Assembly: GCA_030539275.1 (NCBI GenBank)
Contig: JAUNSK010000006.1
Span: 1-64,000, forward strand
Direction: 5' to 3'
DNA: 64,000 bases
From: Oscillospiraceae bacterium
GTDB taxonomy: Bacteria; Bacillota; Clostridia; Oscillospirales; Ruminococcaceae
The translations under genes were made by a program, and so were the position numbers. The notes under the pieces were generated by a model. That model ran no database searches. It saw nothing but the letters and a program-made list of their open reading frames with translations, and was not told where the DNA came from. Positions 51,730-57,249 of this stretch are shown here, in pieces. The first letter of the stretch is position 1. The number at the start of each line of letters is the position of its first letter.

Positions 51730-52569
51730 TCAGTCAAAATAGCTGCTCTGATATTCACTGGGTTTTATTCCGGTACGCAGTGAAAATGTTGAAGAAAAAT
51801 GGGCGCTGCTTGAAAATCCGCATTTCTGGGCTATCTCCGTCAGTGACATATTTCTTCTGGCAAGCAGTAATTTTGACTTCTGAATGCGCACATCTATAAT
51901 ATACTGGGCAGGAGTCTGGCCAGTCTGTTCTTTAAATCGTCTGTTAAGACTGGATACTGATACATAACCGAGTCTTGCAAGATCATCTGACGTTATCTTT
52001 TCCGGGTAGTGCAGTTCTATGTACTGCTGAGCCCTGGCAACGCAGTAGTCGGAGGATACAGGCCTCATATCAAGTGTCTCACCAAGAATGCTGCGTATTA
52101 TCCAGTGTGTGATGATAACAGACTGAGCAGCAAGGGTGATGTCTGAGTTCATCATGGATTTGCTGTACTCAAATGCAAATGTATTGAGCGCCTTTAAAAT
52201 ATCACTGCAGATTACAAAGCTTTCCGGTGCAAAAACCGGGATTTTTTTGCTGTAGAGAAGAAACTGGCTTTCGAAAAATTTCTTTTCTATCATAACACAG
52301 TAATATCGTTTGCTGCAGCTGTCACTGTGAGGTATACCGGGTGAATATATATATGCACCGTAATGACCGTATGATGAGCTTATCTCAGAAAAATCAATTA
52401 CTGCCATATACGACGGGTGAACATGATCGTCTTTACGTGCATAACCGCATTGTCCGGTGCTTGGAATAAAAAGACCAAGCTTTTTGTCAACATAGCAGTC
52501 AACGTATGCAAGCTGCTGTTGCGTTAGATCTTCGCCTACCAGCTTTCTGATAATATTAATGTCTTCCAT
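51730..52569 (-). CDS. AraC-family transcriptional regulator
   Basis: A 279-residue regulator with two C-terminal helix-turn-helix motifs (LGYVSVSSLNRRFKEQTGQT and CGFSSSAHFSSTFSLRTGIK, about 195-275). The N-terminal domain (about 1-160) is unlike the AraC paralogues at 24178 and 37239; it has cysteines at 25, 40 and in SDSCSKRYYC, and a CYVDKKLGLF segment. AAGGAAC precedes the ATG. The gene order suggests control of the PPOX gene downstream. The effector is unknown. Confidence 0.87.
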   Translation of the reverse strand: MEDINIIRKLVGEDLTQQQLAYVDCYVDKKLGLFIPSTGQCGYARKDDHVHPSYMAVIDFSEISSSYGHYGAYIYSPGIPHSDSCSKRYYCVMIEKKFFESQFLLYSKKIPVFAPESFVICSDILKALNTFAFEYSKSMMNSDITLAAQSVIITHWIIRSILGETLDMRPVSSDYCVARAQQYIELHYPEKITSDDLARLGYVSVSSLNRRFKEQTGQTPAQYIIDVRIQKSKLLLARRNMSLTEIAQKCGFSSSAHFSSTFSLRTGIKPSEYQSSYFD

Positions 52570-52768: not shown

Positions 52769-52797
52769 TTGACTTTTTATCTGCAATGAGTTATAAT
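52769..52797 (+). promoter_or_regulatory. Sigma-A-type promoter of the ExbB/ExbD-like operon
   Basis: TTGACT at 52769-52774, 17-base spacer, TATAAT at 52792-52797, 50 bases before the first start codon. Confidence 0.65.
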
Positions 52798-52846: not shown

Positions 52847-53290
52847 ATGCCAGGTCTTACTCAAATATTAATAAAATTCGGTCCGTTTATAAGTCCGGCT
52901 ATTTTCTGCTTAGTTCCGGTTTGCGCTGTTTTTCTGGGCATTGCATATGCGTGGAGTAAAAAAATATTAACAACAATGTCAGTTAAAAATGAGATGGATT
53001 ATAAGCAGACATCATTTAACTGGATAAATTTCTTTTACACCGTATTTCTTGCAATAGTATCATTGTTTCCGCTGTTAGGGATGCTTGGTACTGTTCTTTC
53101 ACTTCTTGCACTGGATATTTCCACTGAGAATACCGATGCACTAAAACAAAATTTCTTTATCGCACTTGATACCACTGCCTGGGGACTTGTCTTTTCAATA
53201 ATATTTAAGGCAGTTCACTCTTTCGTACAAACCAAGATCGAAACAGCTATTACCAAGATCGATGAGCTGATCAGATTATCATATAAGTAA
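52847..53290 (+). CDS. ExbB/TolQ/MotA-family proton-channel-like protein
   Basis: A 147-residue protein with three membrane segments (about 12-36, 60-88 and 104-126), shorter than typical ExbB (about 220-240). The two pore-lining signatures are clear: LLGMLGT (76-82) matches the LLGLLGTVxG motif of segment two, and ALDTTAWGL (106-114) matches the ALxTTAxGL motif of segment three with Thr109 and Thr110 at the proton-path positions. It should form a ring around ExbD-like subunits. It is first of three tightly spaced genes (12-base gaps). AGGCTG/GGAGG precedes the ATG. The role in a Gram-positive cell is unknown. Confidence 0.85.
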   Translation: MPGLTQILIKFGPFISPAIFCLVPVCAVFLGIAYAWSKKILTTMSVKNEMDYKQTSFNWINFFYTVFLAIVSLFPLLGMLGTVLSLLALDISTENTDALKQNFFIALDTTAWGLVFSIIFKAVHSFVQTKIETAITKIDELIRLSYK

Positions 53291-53302
53291 GAGGAGCCAT
53301 GA

Positions 53303-53911
53303 ATGAATAAACGACAGTTACATCTTGATTTTACATCTCTTCTGGATGTGTTTATGATCATTCTGTTTTTCTTTGTCATCTTCAGCAAACTTGAAACTGA
53401 TGATATAAAACAAGATCTTGACGAACAGCGCAGCCAGATAGCAGCTCAGAGTGAGCAGGCAGAACAAAAAGAAGATGAGGCACATGAGCTCCTTAATGAC
53501 GCACAGAAGAAAAATGACTCAGCTGATATTCGTCTTGAAGAAGCGAATCAGGCTGCAGACCGCAGCGGAGAAAATGCGGACGCGATCATGGAGTTTGGTG
53601 AGAGTAATAATATTAAATTCAGCCTGCAGATGTCAGCAGATACAAATGACTGGTGCATCAATGTTCTTAACGGACAAGGCCGGACGGACAGGATCGAAAA
53701 ATCCGATGTTTCGTCAATGACTGACTCAGTTATCTCTATACTCAGAAGCTGCGGATATAGTGAGGATGATACAGTACTTCTGGAATTTTTCTACGATGCA
53801 ACCGAGAACGGAACTACTTCTGCATATAAGCAGATAAACAAAATGATGACTCAGTTAAAGAAGAAATACACTCATTTATTCTACTCTGAAACTGACAGGT
53901 CATTATTGTAA
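53303..53911 (+). CDS. ExbD/TolR-like single-pass protein with coiled coil
   Basis: A 202-residue protein: a basic cytoplasmic start, then one membrane segment (about 11-29) reading LDFTSLLDVFMIILFFFVIF. This fits the ExbD/TolR pattern xxTPLIDVxxxLLIFF, with Asp15 at the proton-carrying position and Thr/Ser in place of Thr-Pro. A long Glu/Gln/Ala-rich coiled coil follows (about 33-90), then a C-terminal alpha/beta domain (VLLEFFYDATENGTTS, YKQINKMMTQLKKKY) comparable in outline to the ExbD periplasmic domain. GAGGAG precedes the ATG. The coiled coil is unusual for ExbD and could span the cell wall. Confidence 0.75.
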   Translation: MNKRQLHLDFTSLLDVFMIILFFFVIFSKLETDDIKQDLDEQRSQIAAQSEQAEQKEDEAHELLNDAQKKNDSADIRLEEANQAADRSGENADAIMEFGESNNIKFSLQMSADTNDWCINVLNGQGRTDRIEKSDVSSMTDSVISILRSCGYSEDDTVLLEFFYDATENGTTSAYKQINKMMTQLKKKYTHLFYSETDRSLL

Positions 53912-53923
53912 AGGAGAAATAGT

Positions 53924-54334
53924 ATGAAAACGAAAACTAAAAGTAAAGGCCTTTCAGTAATAGATCTAATAATAATTCTTATCGTAGCTGCAGCTGTTAT
54001 TGCCGTACTGTTATTAGGTAAAGGAGGATTCGGAAATGGCGGCGGAAAATCTGCAGGAATAAGTGAACAGCAGACTGCCCCCGAAACTACATCAGCACAG
54101 GATGATCTTGTTACTGAAGAAATACAGTACGTAAACATTACGGTATCGGGAAGCGAATACCTGTATCAGAACAGTAAAATATCTTTAGATGACATTATAG
54201 GTGAATTATCTCAAATGCCGTCTGACACACAGGTTAAAATATCAGACGATAATTCTTCACTGAAAGCATATAAAAATCTTAAAGAATCACTGACACAGAA
54301 TAATATTAAGTACATAGAGACTAACGTTGATTAA
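53924..54334 (+). CDS. Second ExbD-like single-pass protein
   Basis: A 136-residue protein: Lys-rich start, one membrane segment (about 11-32; GLSVIDLIIILIVAAAV) that also has an Asp (Asp14) at its cytoplasmic end, a Gly/Ser/Thr/Gln linker (33-65), and a C-terminal domain (about 67-136). The C-terminal part (VNITVSGSEYLYQNSKISL, then DIIGELSQ, TQVKISDD, LKESLTQNNIKYI) follows the strand-helix order of the ExbD periplasmic domain. It is last in the three-gene operon, with GGAG upstream. Two different ExbD-like partners suggest a heterodimeric central shaft. Confidence 0.7.
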   Translation: MKTKTKSKGLSVIDLIIILIVAAAVIAVLLLGKGGFGNGGGKSAGISEQQTAPETTSAQDDLVTEEIQYVNITVSGSEYLYQNSKISLDDIIGELSQMPSDTQVKISDDNSSLKAYKNLKESLTQNNIKYIETNVD

Positions 54335-54462: not shown

Positions 54463-54496
54463 CCGCCCAGCTGTGCAGCAGGGCGGCATTTTTTTT
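54463..54496 (+). terminator. Rho-independent terminator
   Basis: CCGCCC at 54463-54468 pairs with GGGCGG at 54481-54486 around an inner GCTG/CAGC stem, then CATTTTTTTT. Confidence 0.85.
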
Positions 54497-54738: not shown

Positions 54739-57249
54739 ATGAAAAGAGGATATAAAAGAATTGCAGCTGCTCTGACAGGTCTTGCTGTAATGCTTGCATG
54801 TACACAGGATTGTACTACACATTCCAGAAATGCTCTTGCAGCATCAGCAAACTCTATTCCTGCTTTTCCTGGTGCTGTGGGCGGCGGAAGCCTTGCAACA
54901 GGCGGCAGAGGCGGAAAGGTCGTTCATGTAACTAATCTCAATGACAGCGGAACAGGATCATTTCGTGAGGCTGTAGGCGGTTCCGGTAAGATAGTAGTGT
55001 TTGATGTGAGCGGAACGATTGAACTTAAAAGTGATGTTGTTGTAGGATCAGATATCACAATAGCCGGTCAGACGGCACCGGGCGGTGCGGGAATTACTCT
55101 TAAAAACTATAAGCTCGGGCTGGGCGGCACAAATGTAATATGCAGATATATAAGCTCAAGACCAGGTGAACGAGGAACAAGTGCGGACTATGATGCATGG
55201 GGCGGTGCAAACGGAACAGGATCAATTATAGATCACTGCTCGCTTGGCTGGGCAAATGATGAGCAGTGGGGACTATATTCACAGTGTGACAATATTACTG
55301 TCCAGTACTCTGTTATAGGACCTTCAAATTCATTTTCCTATCACAGCAAGGGCATCCATGGTTTCGGAATAATGCTCGGGCGTTCAAATGTTACATATGA
55401 TCATAACCTGATCGTACATAACGTATCAAGAAATTTCAGGGGAAAGGTAACAGGCACAAACACTGCAGACTTTACCAACAATGTTATTTATAACTGGGCA
55501 AGCCAGACTGCATACGGTACTCTCGGACATGTAAACTATGTAGGCAATACTCTGAAAAAAGGTGTATCTACAGTAGGCGGACATAATTATGTAAGTGTGG
55601 GAGACAGTGGTACGGCACCGGAAAACTATCTTATTTACTTGTCTGGTAATCGTTTTCTTAACAGGGATAATACTCAGTACAGCAATTTCTCCGATAATAA
55701 CTGGGCAGGTATAAAGTATGCAAGTGACAAGAATGAATACAATACAAGAAGCAATTCATACTTTCCTATGAAGGTTGACGGTGTGGATGTATCCAGCGTT
55801 CTTAGTGCTGAAAGTTCAGCAAATGCCTATGATCACGTAATCTCATATGCAGGAAACGGCATCTCATCAGACAGGCGAACTGAAATAGATAAACAGGTAG
55901 CGTATGAAACTGAGCATGGAACAGGAACTCTTACCGGCGCACGTCCGTACAGTGAGGCAACAGATGAGCAGAAAGCGACAATAGACAAGTACCAGATGCA
56001 GTGCGGAGTTACTTATAAATATCCGGCAGCGGTATCAAGAACCATAACTGATACCGATAATGACGGTATGCCGGATGAATGGGAGAAGGCCAGAGGCCTT
56101 GATCCTTATGATGCATCGGATGCATACGGGGATTACTGTCTTAAAGGCTATTCAAATATTGAGTATTATATAAATGATCTTACAGTAAACTCATTTCCTG
56201 AAGGTGTTGTTGAACTGTCACCGCTTGAAGGCATAAAAACAAAATCTGCATTTGAAAAGATCGAGGCAGAGGATTTTACTGACCAGAGCGGAGTAAAAAC
56301 TGAAACAAACTCAGAAGCCGGCCAGAATGTAGGGTATATTGAAAACGGAGATTATATCAGATTTTCTGACATTGACTTCTCAAACGGCGCATACAGCTTC
56401 ACTGCACGCCTTGCCGGATCAAAGGCAGGCATAGAATTATATCTGGACTCGCTTGACAACACGCCTGTAGCAGTATGTGATTTTGCCGGAAGTGACGGCT
56501 GGCAGACATGGAAGGATGAAAGCTTTAATATCAGTGGTATTACCGGTGTCCATGATCTGTATATCAGATTTACCGGAGCCGAGGGATATCTGGTCAATAT
56601 AGACAGCTTTTATTTTTCAAAAGAGAGAGTACCGTTAAGCGCAACATTTATTAAAAACTTGACAGTTTATGATACAGCAAATGCTGCTGACTGGAAAATC
56701 ACAAAAGATGCAAACGACAGCTCTATGGTATACGGAGACCGTGACGTAACCTTCAAAGGACTGCCGGAGTTCCTTACAGGAAGCGAAATGATAGCTACTG
56801 CATGTGATTCAAAGGCATACACTGATACCGTAGCAGAATTTACAGCAGGTGACAGCATAGATGTTTACGCAGGAGTTGATACAAGGGTTACAGCAACTCC
56901 ACTGTGGCTTGAAGGCTGGGAAAAAACTGATCTTACATTTTTAAATTCTTCAGACGTTGAATATGCTGTTTTTAAAAAGAAATACAGCAAAGGTGACAAA
57001 ATAACACTCGGCAGCAACGGACAGTCTGCATACTGCGTAAACTACTGTATCTTTGCTGTAAAGTCATCAGACACTGTTATAGGAGATGTTGATCAGGATG
57101 GTGTACTGAGTGTTTCTGATGCAGTATTGCTGCAGAAGATCCTGCTTGGTATGACTTCAGCGGACTCAGCTGATGCAGATGTAAACGATGACGGCATCAT
57201 AAGTCTTCCTGATTTTATTAAGCTAAAAAATCTGATCCTCACGCAGTAA
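54739..57249 (+). CDS. Cellulosomal pectate lyase with CBM6-like domain and C-terminal dockerin
   Basis: An 836-residue exported protein: signal peptide (to about 36); a right-handed beta-helix pectate-lyase domain (about 40-450, PL1-type; FPGAVGGGSLATGGRGGKVV opening, GTGSFREAV, IIDHCSLGWANDEQ, YDHNLIVHNVSRNFRGK); a DTDNDGMPDEWEKARGLDP calcium-binding segment; a CBM6/35-like domain (about 505-640, IEAEDFTDQSG); a further beta domain of unknown role (about 645-770); and a dockerin (about 775-836, GDVDQDGVLSVSDAVLLQKI and ADVNDDGIISLPDFIKLKNL). It should cleave polygalacturonate by beta-elimination with Ca2+. GGAGGG precedes the ATG. Confidence 0.92.
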   Translation: MKRGYKRIAAALTGLAVMLACTQDCTTHSRNALAASANSIPAFPGAVGGGSLATGGRGGKVVHVTNLNDSGTGSFREAVGGSGKIVVFDVSGTIELKSDVVVGSDITIAGQTAPGGAGITLKNYKLGLGGTNVICRYISSRPGERGTSADYDAWGGANGTGSIIDHCSLGWANDEQWGLYSQCDNITVQYSVIGPSNSFSYHSKGIHGFGIMLGRSNVTYDHNLIVHNVSRNFRGKVTGTNTADFTNNVIYNWASQTAYGTLGHVNYVGNTLKKGVSTVGGHNYVSVGDSGTAPENYLIYLSGNRFLNRDNTQYSNFSDNNWAGIKYASDKNEYNTRSNSYFPMKVDGVDVSSVLSAESSANAYDHVISYAGNGISSDRRTEIDKQVAYETEHGTGTLTGARPYSEATDEQKATIDKYQMQCGVTYKYPAAVSRTITDTDNDGMPDEWEKARGLDPYDASDAYGDYCLKGYSNIEYYINDLTVNSFPEGVVELSPLEGIKTKSAFEKIEAEDFTDQSGVKTETNSEAGQNVGYIENGDYIRFSDIDFSNGAYSFTARLAGSKAGIELYLDSLDNTPVAVCDFAGSDGWQTWKDESFNISGITGVHDLYIRFTGAEGYLVNIDSFYFSKERVPLSATFIKNLTVYDTANAADWKITKDANDSSMVYGDRDVTFKGLPEFLTGSEMIATACDSKAYTDTVAEFTAGDSIDVYAGVDTRVTATPLWLEGWEKTDLTFLNSSDVEYAVFKKKYSKGDKITLGSNGQSAYCVNYCIFAVKSSDTVIGDVDQDGVLSVSDAVLLQKILLGMTSADSADADVNDDGIISLPDFIKLKNLILTQ

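Follow-up and report, generated by a model that had tools for sequence, protein, structure and literature searches.

A conserved three-gene locus predicted to encode an ExbB/ExbD-type membrane motor in a probably monoderm Oscillospiraceae bacterium

Motors of the ExbB/ExbD type are usually explained through the work they do at the outer membrane (OM). What would such a motor do in a cell that probably has none? The question is raised by three genes in a 64,000 nucleotide stretch of the Oscillospiraceae bacterium assembly GCA_030539275.1 (contig JAUNSK010000006.1, positions 1 to 64,000), hereafter called the window. The genes are B (52847-53290, 147 residues), D (53303-53911, 202 residues) and T (53924-54334, 136 residues). 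A sequence-only reading of the window, made by a model, had described three plus strand open reading frames (ORFs) with gaps of 12 bases, and these coordinates and spacings were verified. It had proposed a reduced motor with a heterodimeric shaft, working in a cell without an OM. The analysis supported an ExbB/ExbD-type set of membrane proteins with a second ExbD-like protein (T), kept as a trio across relatives, in a genome without TonB_C or Omp85 matches; it did not support the heterodimeric shaft.

According to a 2022 review, whether and how ExbB/ExbD orthologues work in Gram-positive bacteria is still to be tested (PMC9389320). One 2025 survey considers the Ton systems of monoderms, Clostridia included, likely to be non-functional (PMC12204202), and another 2025 survey groups the non-flagellar relatives under 'generic ion transporters', a structurally diverse set (PMC12505986). 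No description of such a trio in Gram-positive bacteria was found in the literature searched, a search that had most subscription papers and all preprints outside it.

On balance, B, D and T probably make up an ExbB/ExbD-type membrane motor operating with neither TonB nor TolA in a probably monoderm cell, with T lying outside the ion path. The combination of one ring protein with two ExbD-like proteins is already known from AglRQS (PMC9389320) and from several Gram-negative Ton systems. The present case is set apart by its setting, the missing TonB_C match, and an ExbD-type head carried by a protein, T, whose family lacks the membrane Asp. Since the trio is conserved and under selection in many Clostridia of rumen and gut, with named isolates including Ruminococcus flavefaciens and R. 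albus 8, the question of function in Gram-positive bacteria becomes directly testable.

B is an ExbB/TolQ-like protein and the predicted ring subunit. It exceeded the Pfam cut-off for MotA_ExbB (PF01618) with 41.6 versus 22.9 bits, and the PDB chains matched by its profile were MotA, PomA and ExbB. The ExbB/TolQ pore motifs LLGMLGT and ALDTTAWGL, noted earlier, were verified. Conservation was examined in 91 scored loci, which comprise the best 80 of 444 B relatives from a scan of named genomes, loci from further genomes, and the window; L028, L029 and L030, whose contigs are as long as those of L048, L093 and L115, were left out of the count. Pro75, Gly78, Gly81, Thr82, Val83, Leu86, Ala106, Thr110, Gly113 and Lys121 were identical in 91/91 B sequences. 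This set contains the Thr, Gly and Pro residues of the two pore helices (Pro75, Gly78, Gly81, Thr82, Thr110, Gly113), which we take to serve the pore. By a simple hydropathy count B has hydrophobic segments at residues 14-32, 66-84 and 105-123, and the same count gave three segments in 68/91 B sequences, two in 22/91 and four in 1/91. B also weakly matched TIGR04554, a mycoplasma family of three-helix membrane proteins (E 0.016) and possibly a further relative. The trio had only sub-threshold or weak matches in NCBIfam and PADLOC, including ExbB, PomA, ExbD, ZorA and ZorB; a separate scan with B alone gave no match.

D is the predicted axle subunit. It exceeded the Pfam ExbD cut-off (31.4 versus 25.4 bits), and ExbD was matched by 47/52 relatives at E <= 0.01. 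The Asp15 that had been pointed out in its membrane helix was present, together with Thr11, in all 88 D sequences, and an acidic residue lies in the membrane core of 88/88. In the structure model (mean predicted local distance difference test score, pLDDT, 91.6) the membrane helix with Asp15 runs into a long coiled coil that reaches to about residue 99 and is followed by a C-terminal beta-alpha domain. The coiled coil, also claimed earlier for one of the subunits, was backed by a hydrophobic periodicity of 3.5 residues (heptad z 22.8) and by a predicted helix that is almost continuous (residues 10-86 and 88-99). Foldseek comparisons of the D model gave poor superpositions with template modelling (TM) scores of 0.24-0.27, mostly on reverse transcriptase/RNase H structures. 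We read these as a common arrangement of elements. ExbD was absent among the 50 matches listed, and the predicted ExbD-like C-terminal domain of D is only suggestive. The D profile found no convincing match among PDB chains (best E 0.024, with MotB at 0.081). No OmpA family was among the 8 matches of the window D at E <= 1, or among the 25 listed of 33 families for the 52 relatives.

The third protein, T, is a single-pass protein with a membrane helix, a Gly-rich hinge and a linker modeled with low confidence. Its residues 69-133 are clearly predicted to adopt an ExbD/TolR-type fold, so that the ExbD-like C-terminal outline attributed earlier to both proteins is well founded for T. The window T had no Pfam match over the cut-off. 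Within the T family 11/49 sequences matched Pfam ExbD at E <= 1 (best 6.2e-6), and the four viewed one by one reached 14 to 21.1 bits, short of the 25.4 cut-off. The T profile likewise had no convincing match among PDB chains (best E 0.056). Gly columns 37, 39, 41 and 45, which follow the helix in the alignment, hold Gly in 70 to 77 of the 85 T sequences, and a GxGxG motif occurs somewhere in 66/85 T versus 2/88 D sequences. Second T-like genes follow T in 15 loci (for example L039 9491-9925 and L043 9390-9893); GxGxG is present in 2/15 of these copies.

The sequence-only reading had also treated Asp14 of T as a feature of the system. The residue is there in the window, yet only 1/85 T sequences, namely the window's own, has anything acidic within the membrane core of 19 residues. 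Extending the core by three upstream residues raised this to 3/85, the added charges of L056 and L057 lying in a basic N-terminal patch. L026 and L039, which have the most similar B proteins, have no acidic residue in the T membrane segment. Because the residue is private to the window T and missing from these nearest relatives, sequence comparison indicates that Asp14 is not part of how the T family works.

Is the host equipped for OM work? The assembly is 96% complete. TonB_C gave no match in the genome at E <= 1, with a model that exceeded its cut-off in 3/14 control genomes, so that a diverged TonB could escape it. Omp85 gave no match at E <= 0.1 and was found in 7/14 control genomes. Given the completeness and the weakness of the TonB_C model in the controls, these absences carry weight as evidence without being conclusive, and the cell is probably monoderm. 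The genome has a single ExbD match, which is D. Its single MotA_ExbB match is B, and therefore no flagellar stator was found.

Where else does the trio occur? B matched 21/148 genomes of the family. When the neighboring ORFs were read by eye, 12 of these were of a close type and two (G096, G111) of a divergent type; the remainder were, by appearance, flagellar MotA beside MotB, plus two resembling ATPase subunits. The T profile matched 12/148 genomes, identical to the 12 close-type B genomes. Thus every genome found with T carries B, and the possibility raised beforehand, that homologues of the second and third genes always occur without an ExbB-like gene, was not seen. At E 1e-7 the T profile misses the divergent type (L038, G111), which a broader T profile finds. 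Within the genus B matched 5/11 genomes, with close-type scores in 2. A class search with D, scoring up to 8 candidates per genome, matched 3/391 genomes, which are the window and two new full trios (L134 and L135) from other families of the class. A phylum search with T, scoring up to 10 candidates per genome, matched 11/398 genomes at E <= 1e-4. The 10 matches outside the window were rejected as homologues: neither B nor D was matched in the fetched stretches, and we attribute these hits to chance similarity with Gly-rich proteins or lipoproteins. Named hosts of the 80 B relatives kept are several strains of Ruminococcus flavefaciens, R. albus 8 and [Clostridium] aminophilum. Metagenome-assembled genomes among these hosts are labeled Butyrivibrio, Roseburia, Faecalibacterium, Lachnospiraceae and Oscillospiraceae, and many are from rumen or gut by title. 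The module is widespread and patchy and, in view of this wide but uneven spread and its partial presence in the genus, optional.

Gene order was B-D-T in 70/91 loci, B-D-T-T in 15, B only in 3 and B-D only in 3, giving adjacent D and T genes in 85/91. Four of the six exceptions (L040, L086, L109, L116) break off where the contig stops or close to it, L031 belongs to a split genome, and L101 is unexplained. In the split genome, G090, B (L031 9773-10282) lies about 16 kb from D-T (L149 8272-9334) on the same contig, with an unrelated 357-residue gene directly 3' of B. B and D-T can thus be unlinked while both are retained. The divergent type (L037 9747-12867, L038 9700-12785) consists of five genes in a row. 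These are B, D, a longer T with seemingly two membrane segments, a second T-like protein, and a protein with a tRNA_anti-like match that is over the Pfam cut-off in L037 and under it in L038. G096 holds both trio types.

Ratios of nonsynonymous to synonymous substitution rates (dN/dS) were estimated for close pairs by the Nei-Gojobori method. For each of the three genes most ratios fell within 0.02-0.2; dS exceeded 1 in several pairs, whose ratios are rough, and was saturated in the D pair L055/L063. The higher values, 0.33 (B) and 0.28 (T), came from pairs with few changes. The T pair L039/L026 was dropped as it seems to compare unlike copies. By these estimates, all three genes are under purifying selection.

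How might the three proteins work together? In E. coli, cryo-electron microscopy of the Ton and Tol systems shows TonB or TolA joining a 5:2 core, with the TonB helix binding ExbB (PMC12215075), and ExbD dimers capture a strand of TonB (PMC10907165). By analogy with these structures and this strand capture we infer a core of five B subunits surrounding a D homodimer, flanked by T. Ion passage at Asp15 of D would power movement of B and D relative to one another, and the parallel coiled coil of D would be the stalk. The single helix of T would sit beside the B ring, outside the ion path. Its ExbD-type head, on a flexible Gly-rich linker, would work beyond the membrane, where it would bind the cell wall or capture a partner strand, and T would thereby take the position occupied by TonB or TolA next to ExbBD or TolQR. 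Stoichiometry, ion flow, rotation, the position of T and its wall or partner binding are all proposed on this analogy.

Two alternatives assign T another role. In the arrangement originally proposed, a B5-D1-T1 motor, the helices of D and T would both stand within the ring as a heterodimeric shaft. D and T genes are nearly always adjacent, the predicted C-terminal domain of each is of beta-alpha type, its elements arranged in a similar order, and the window T bears an Asp where its helix begins. The membrane core of T is however free of acidic residues in 84/85 sequences, and the T model shows nothing helical beyond the membrane segment for the D coiled coil to pair with. In the two-ExbD precedent AglRQS, moreover, the Asp is predicted in AglQ as well as in AglS (PMC9389320). 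A shaft with two proton-carrying Asp residues was therefore rejected as a system feature, the second Asp being private to the window T, and a D/T heterodimer, conceivably one with a single Asp, is unlikely. Judged by sequence and structure models, the better fit is a D homodimer to which T is added as a further subunit. T could instead be a gate, plug or assembly factor whose Gly-rich stretch covers the B ring and whose head pairs with the D head, switching the motor. The conserved Gly columns and the enrichment of GxGxG in T over D would suit such a role, as would a head with the predicted fold of ExbD, which dimerizes (PMC10907165). The T helix has no conserved residue to contact the pore, and we regard this role as unlikely.

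Two further explanations were weighed. The trio could be what is left of a Ton/Tol system, decayed or without function, as has been proposed for monoderm Ton systems (PMC12204202), in keeping with the patchy distribution and the lack of TonB_C and Omp85 matches. Because dN/dS is low and the B and D residues are invariant, and with gene order retained in 85/91 loci, a remnant is very improbable. We give equally little credence to an anti-phage motor related to Zorya. The ZorA and ZorB profiles matched weakly (E 0.001 to 0.05), as expected from shared ancestry; against it, the genes that recur beside the trio are those of local synteny, in neighborhoods mostly not scanned against defense models, and the window flanks are an AraC regulator and the gene formerly called a pectate lyase, with CBM6 and dockerin domains.

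The proposed motor, a B5-D2 core with T at its side, can be set against known systems. It resembles Ton (ExbB-ExbD-TonB) in that B and D exceed their Pfam cut-offs, the D helix has an Asp and an ExbD fold is predicted for the T domain. It differs in the genome without TonB_C or Omp85 matches, in the long coiled coil of D, and in that the clearer ExbD-type domain sits on the separate, Asp-less protein T. TolA has a long helical linker, whereas the linker of T is short and modeled with low confidence; the T domain is TolR/ExbD-like, and the Omp85 match is missing here too. AglR-AglQ-AglS of Myxococcus gliding also combines a single ring protein with a pair of ExbD/TolR-like proteins, but both of those are predicted to have a membrane Asp (PMC9389320) and T does not. 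Ton loci with exbD1 and exbD2, for example in Xanthomonas, likewise have two exbD-like genes per system, but act with TonB in Gram-negatives. Zorya ZorA-ZorB shares a distant ring and axle similarity with B and D, but no recurrent effector-like neighbor of the trio was seen across the 91 loci. D differs from the MotAB stator in having no matched OmpA-type peptidoglycan domain.

On what might the motor act? We tentatively put forward, as a possibility short of an even chance, a class of wall-directed motors that lack TonB and TolA and occur in Clostridia of gut and rumen. There the roles of ExbD would be split, D keeping the ion helix and gaining the coiled-coil stalk, and T having the head on a proton-inert anchor of its own and passing force or motion to the thick wall or to machinery at the surface, for example fiber-degrading complexes. 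Among the 91 loci, the commonest recurrent neighbors, which reflect synteny among Ruminococcus/Oscillospiraceae contigs, were found in 10 to 13 and the others in at most 6. Since no neighbor is generally conserved, no target protein can be named. A lead comes from dockerin domains. At least one dockerin match was found in 9/12 trio genomes versus 44/136 others (p 0.009), and at least four in 9/12 versus 19/136 (p 1.4e-5), the cut of 4 being picked post hoc and per-genome counts being capped at 40; both statistics ignore genome size and kinship, and the 136 others include one divergent-trio genome. The three trio genomes without a dockerin match weaken this lead, which hints at fiber-degrading surface machinery as the target.

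The gene 3' of the trio (54739-57249) has a large product that combines CBM6 and dockerin domains with a match resembling CBM35. It had been called a pectate lyase, but no lyase family was found in Pfam at E <= 1. As the genome has at least 40 dockerin matches, the product is probably a cellulosome-type fiber degrader. On the map the trio does lie directly upstream of it, but 404 bases and a terminator-like hairpin with a T-run intervene (54463-54496, plus strand; pattern scan, -17.1 kcal/mol, z -3.05). The hairpin would close the trio unit, so the 54739-57249 gene is most likely a separate transcription unit. A joint operon was rejected on account of the terminator and of non-recurrence across loci, no pectate lyase cluster being among the recurrent neighbors listed for the 91 loci. 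A Shine-Dalgarno-like stretch is visible ahead of each trio gene. The single promoter proposed earlier corresponds to a TTGACT-17-TATAAT site 5' of B (52769-52797, plus strand) that agrees with 11/12 consensus positions; this is a consensus match only, and such sites are only mildly enriched in the region (15 found versus 9.6 expected). On the other side, the trio is flanked by an AraC-type regulator gene identified with Pfam (51730-52569), which is faced by an equally good promoter-like site on the other strand (52687-52659).
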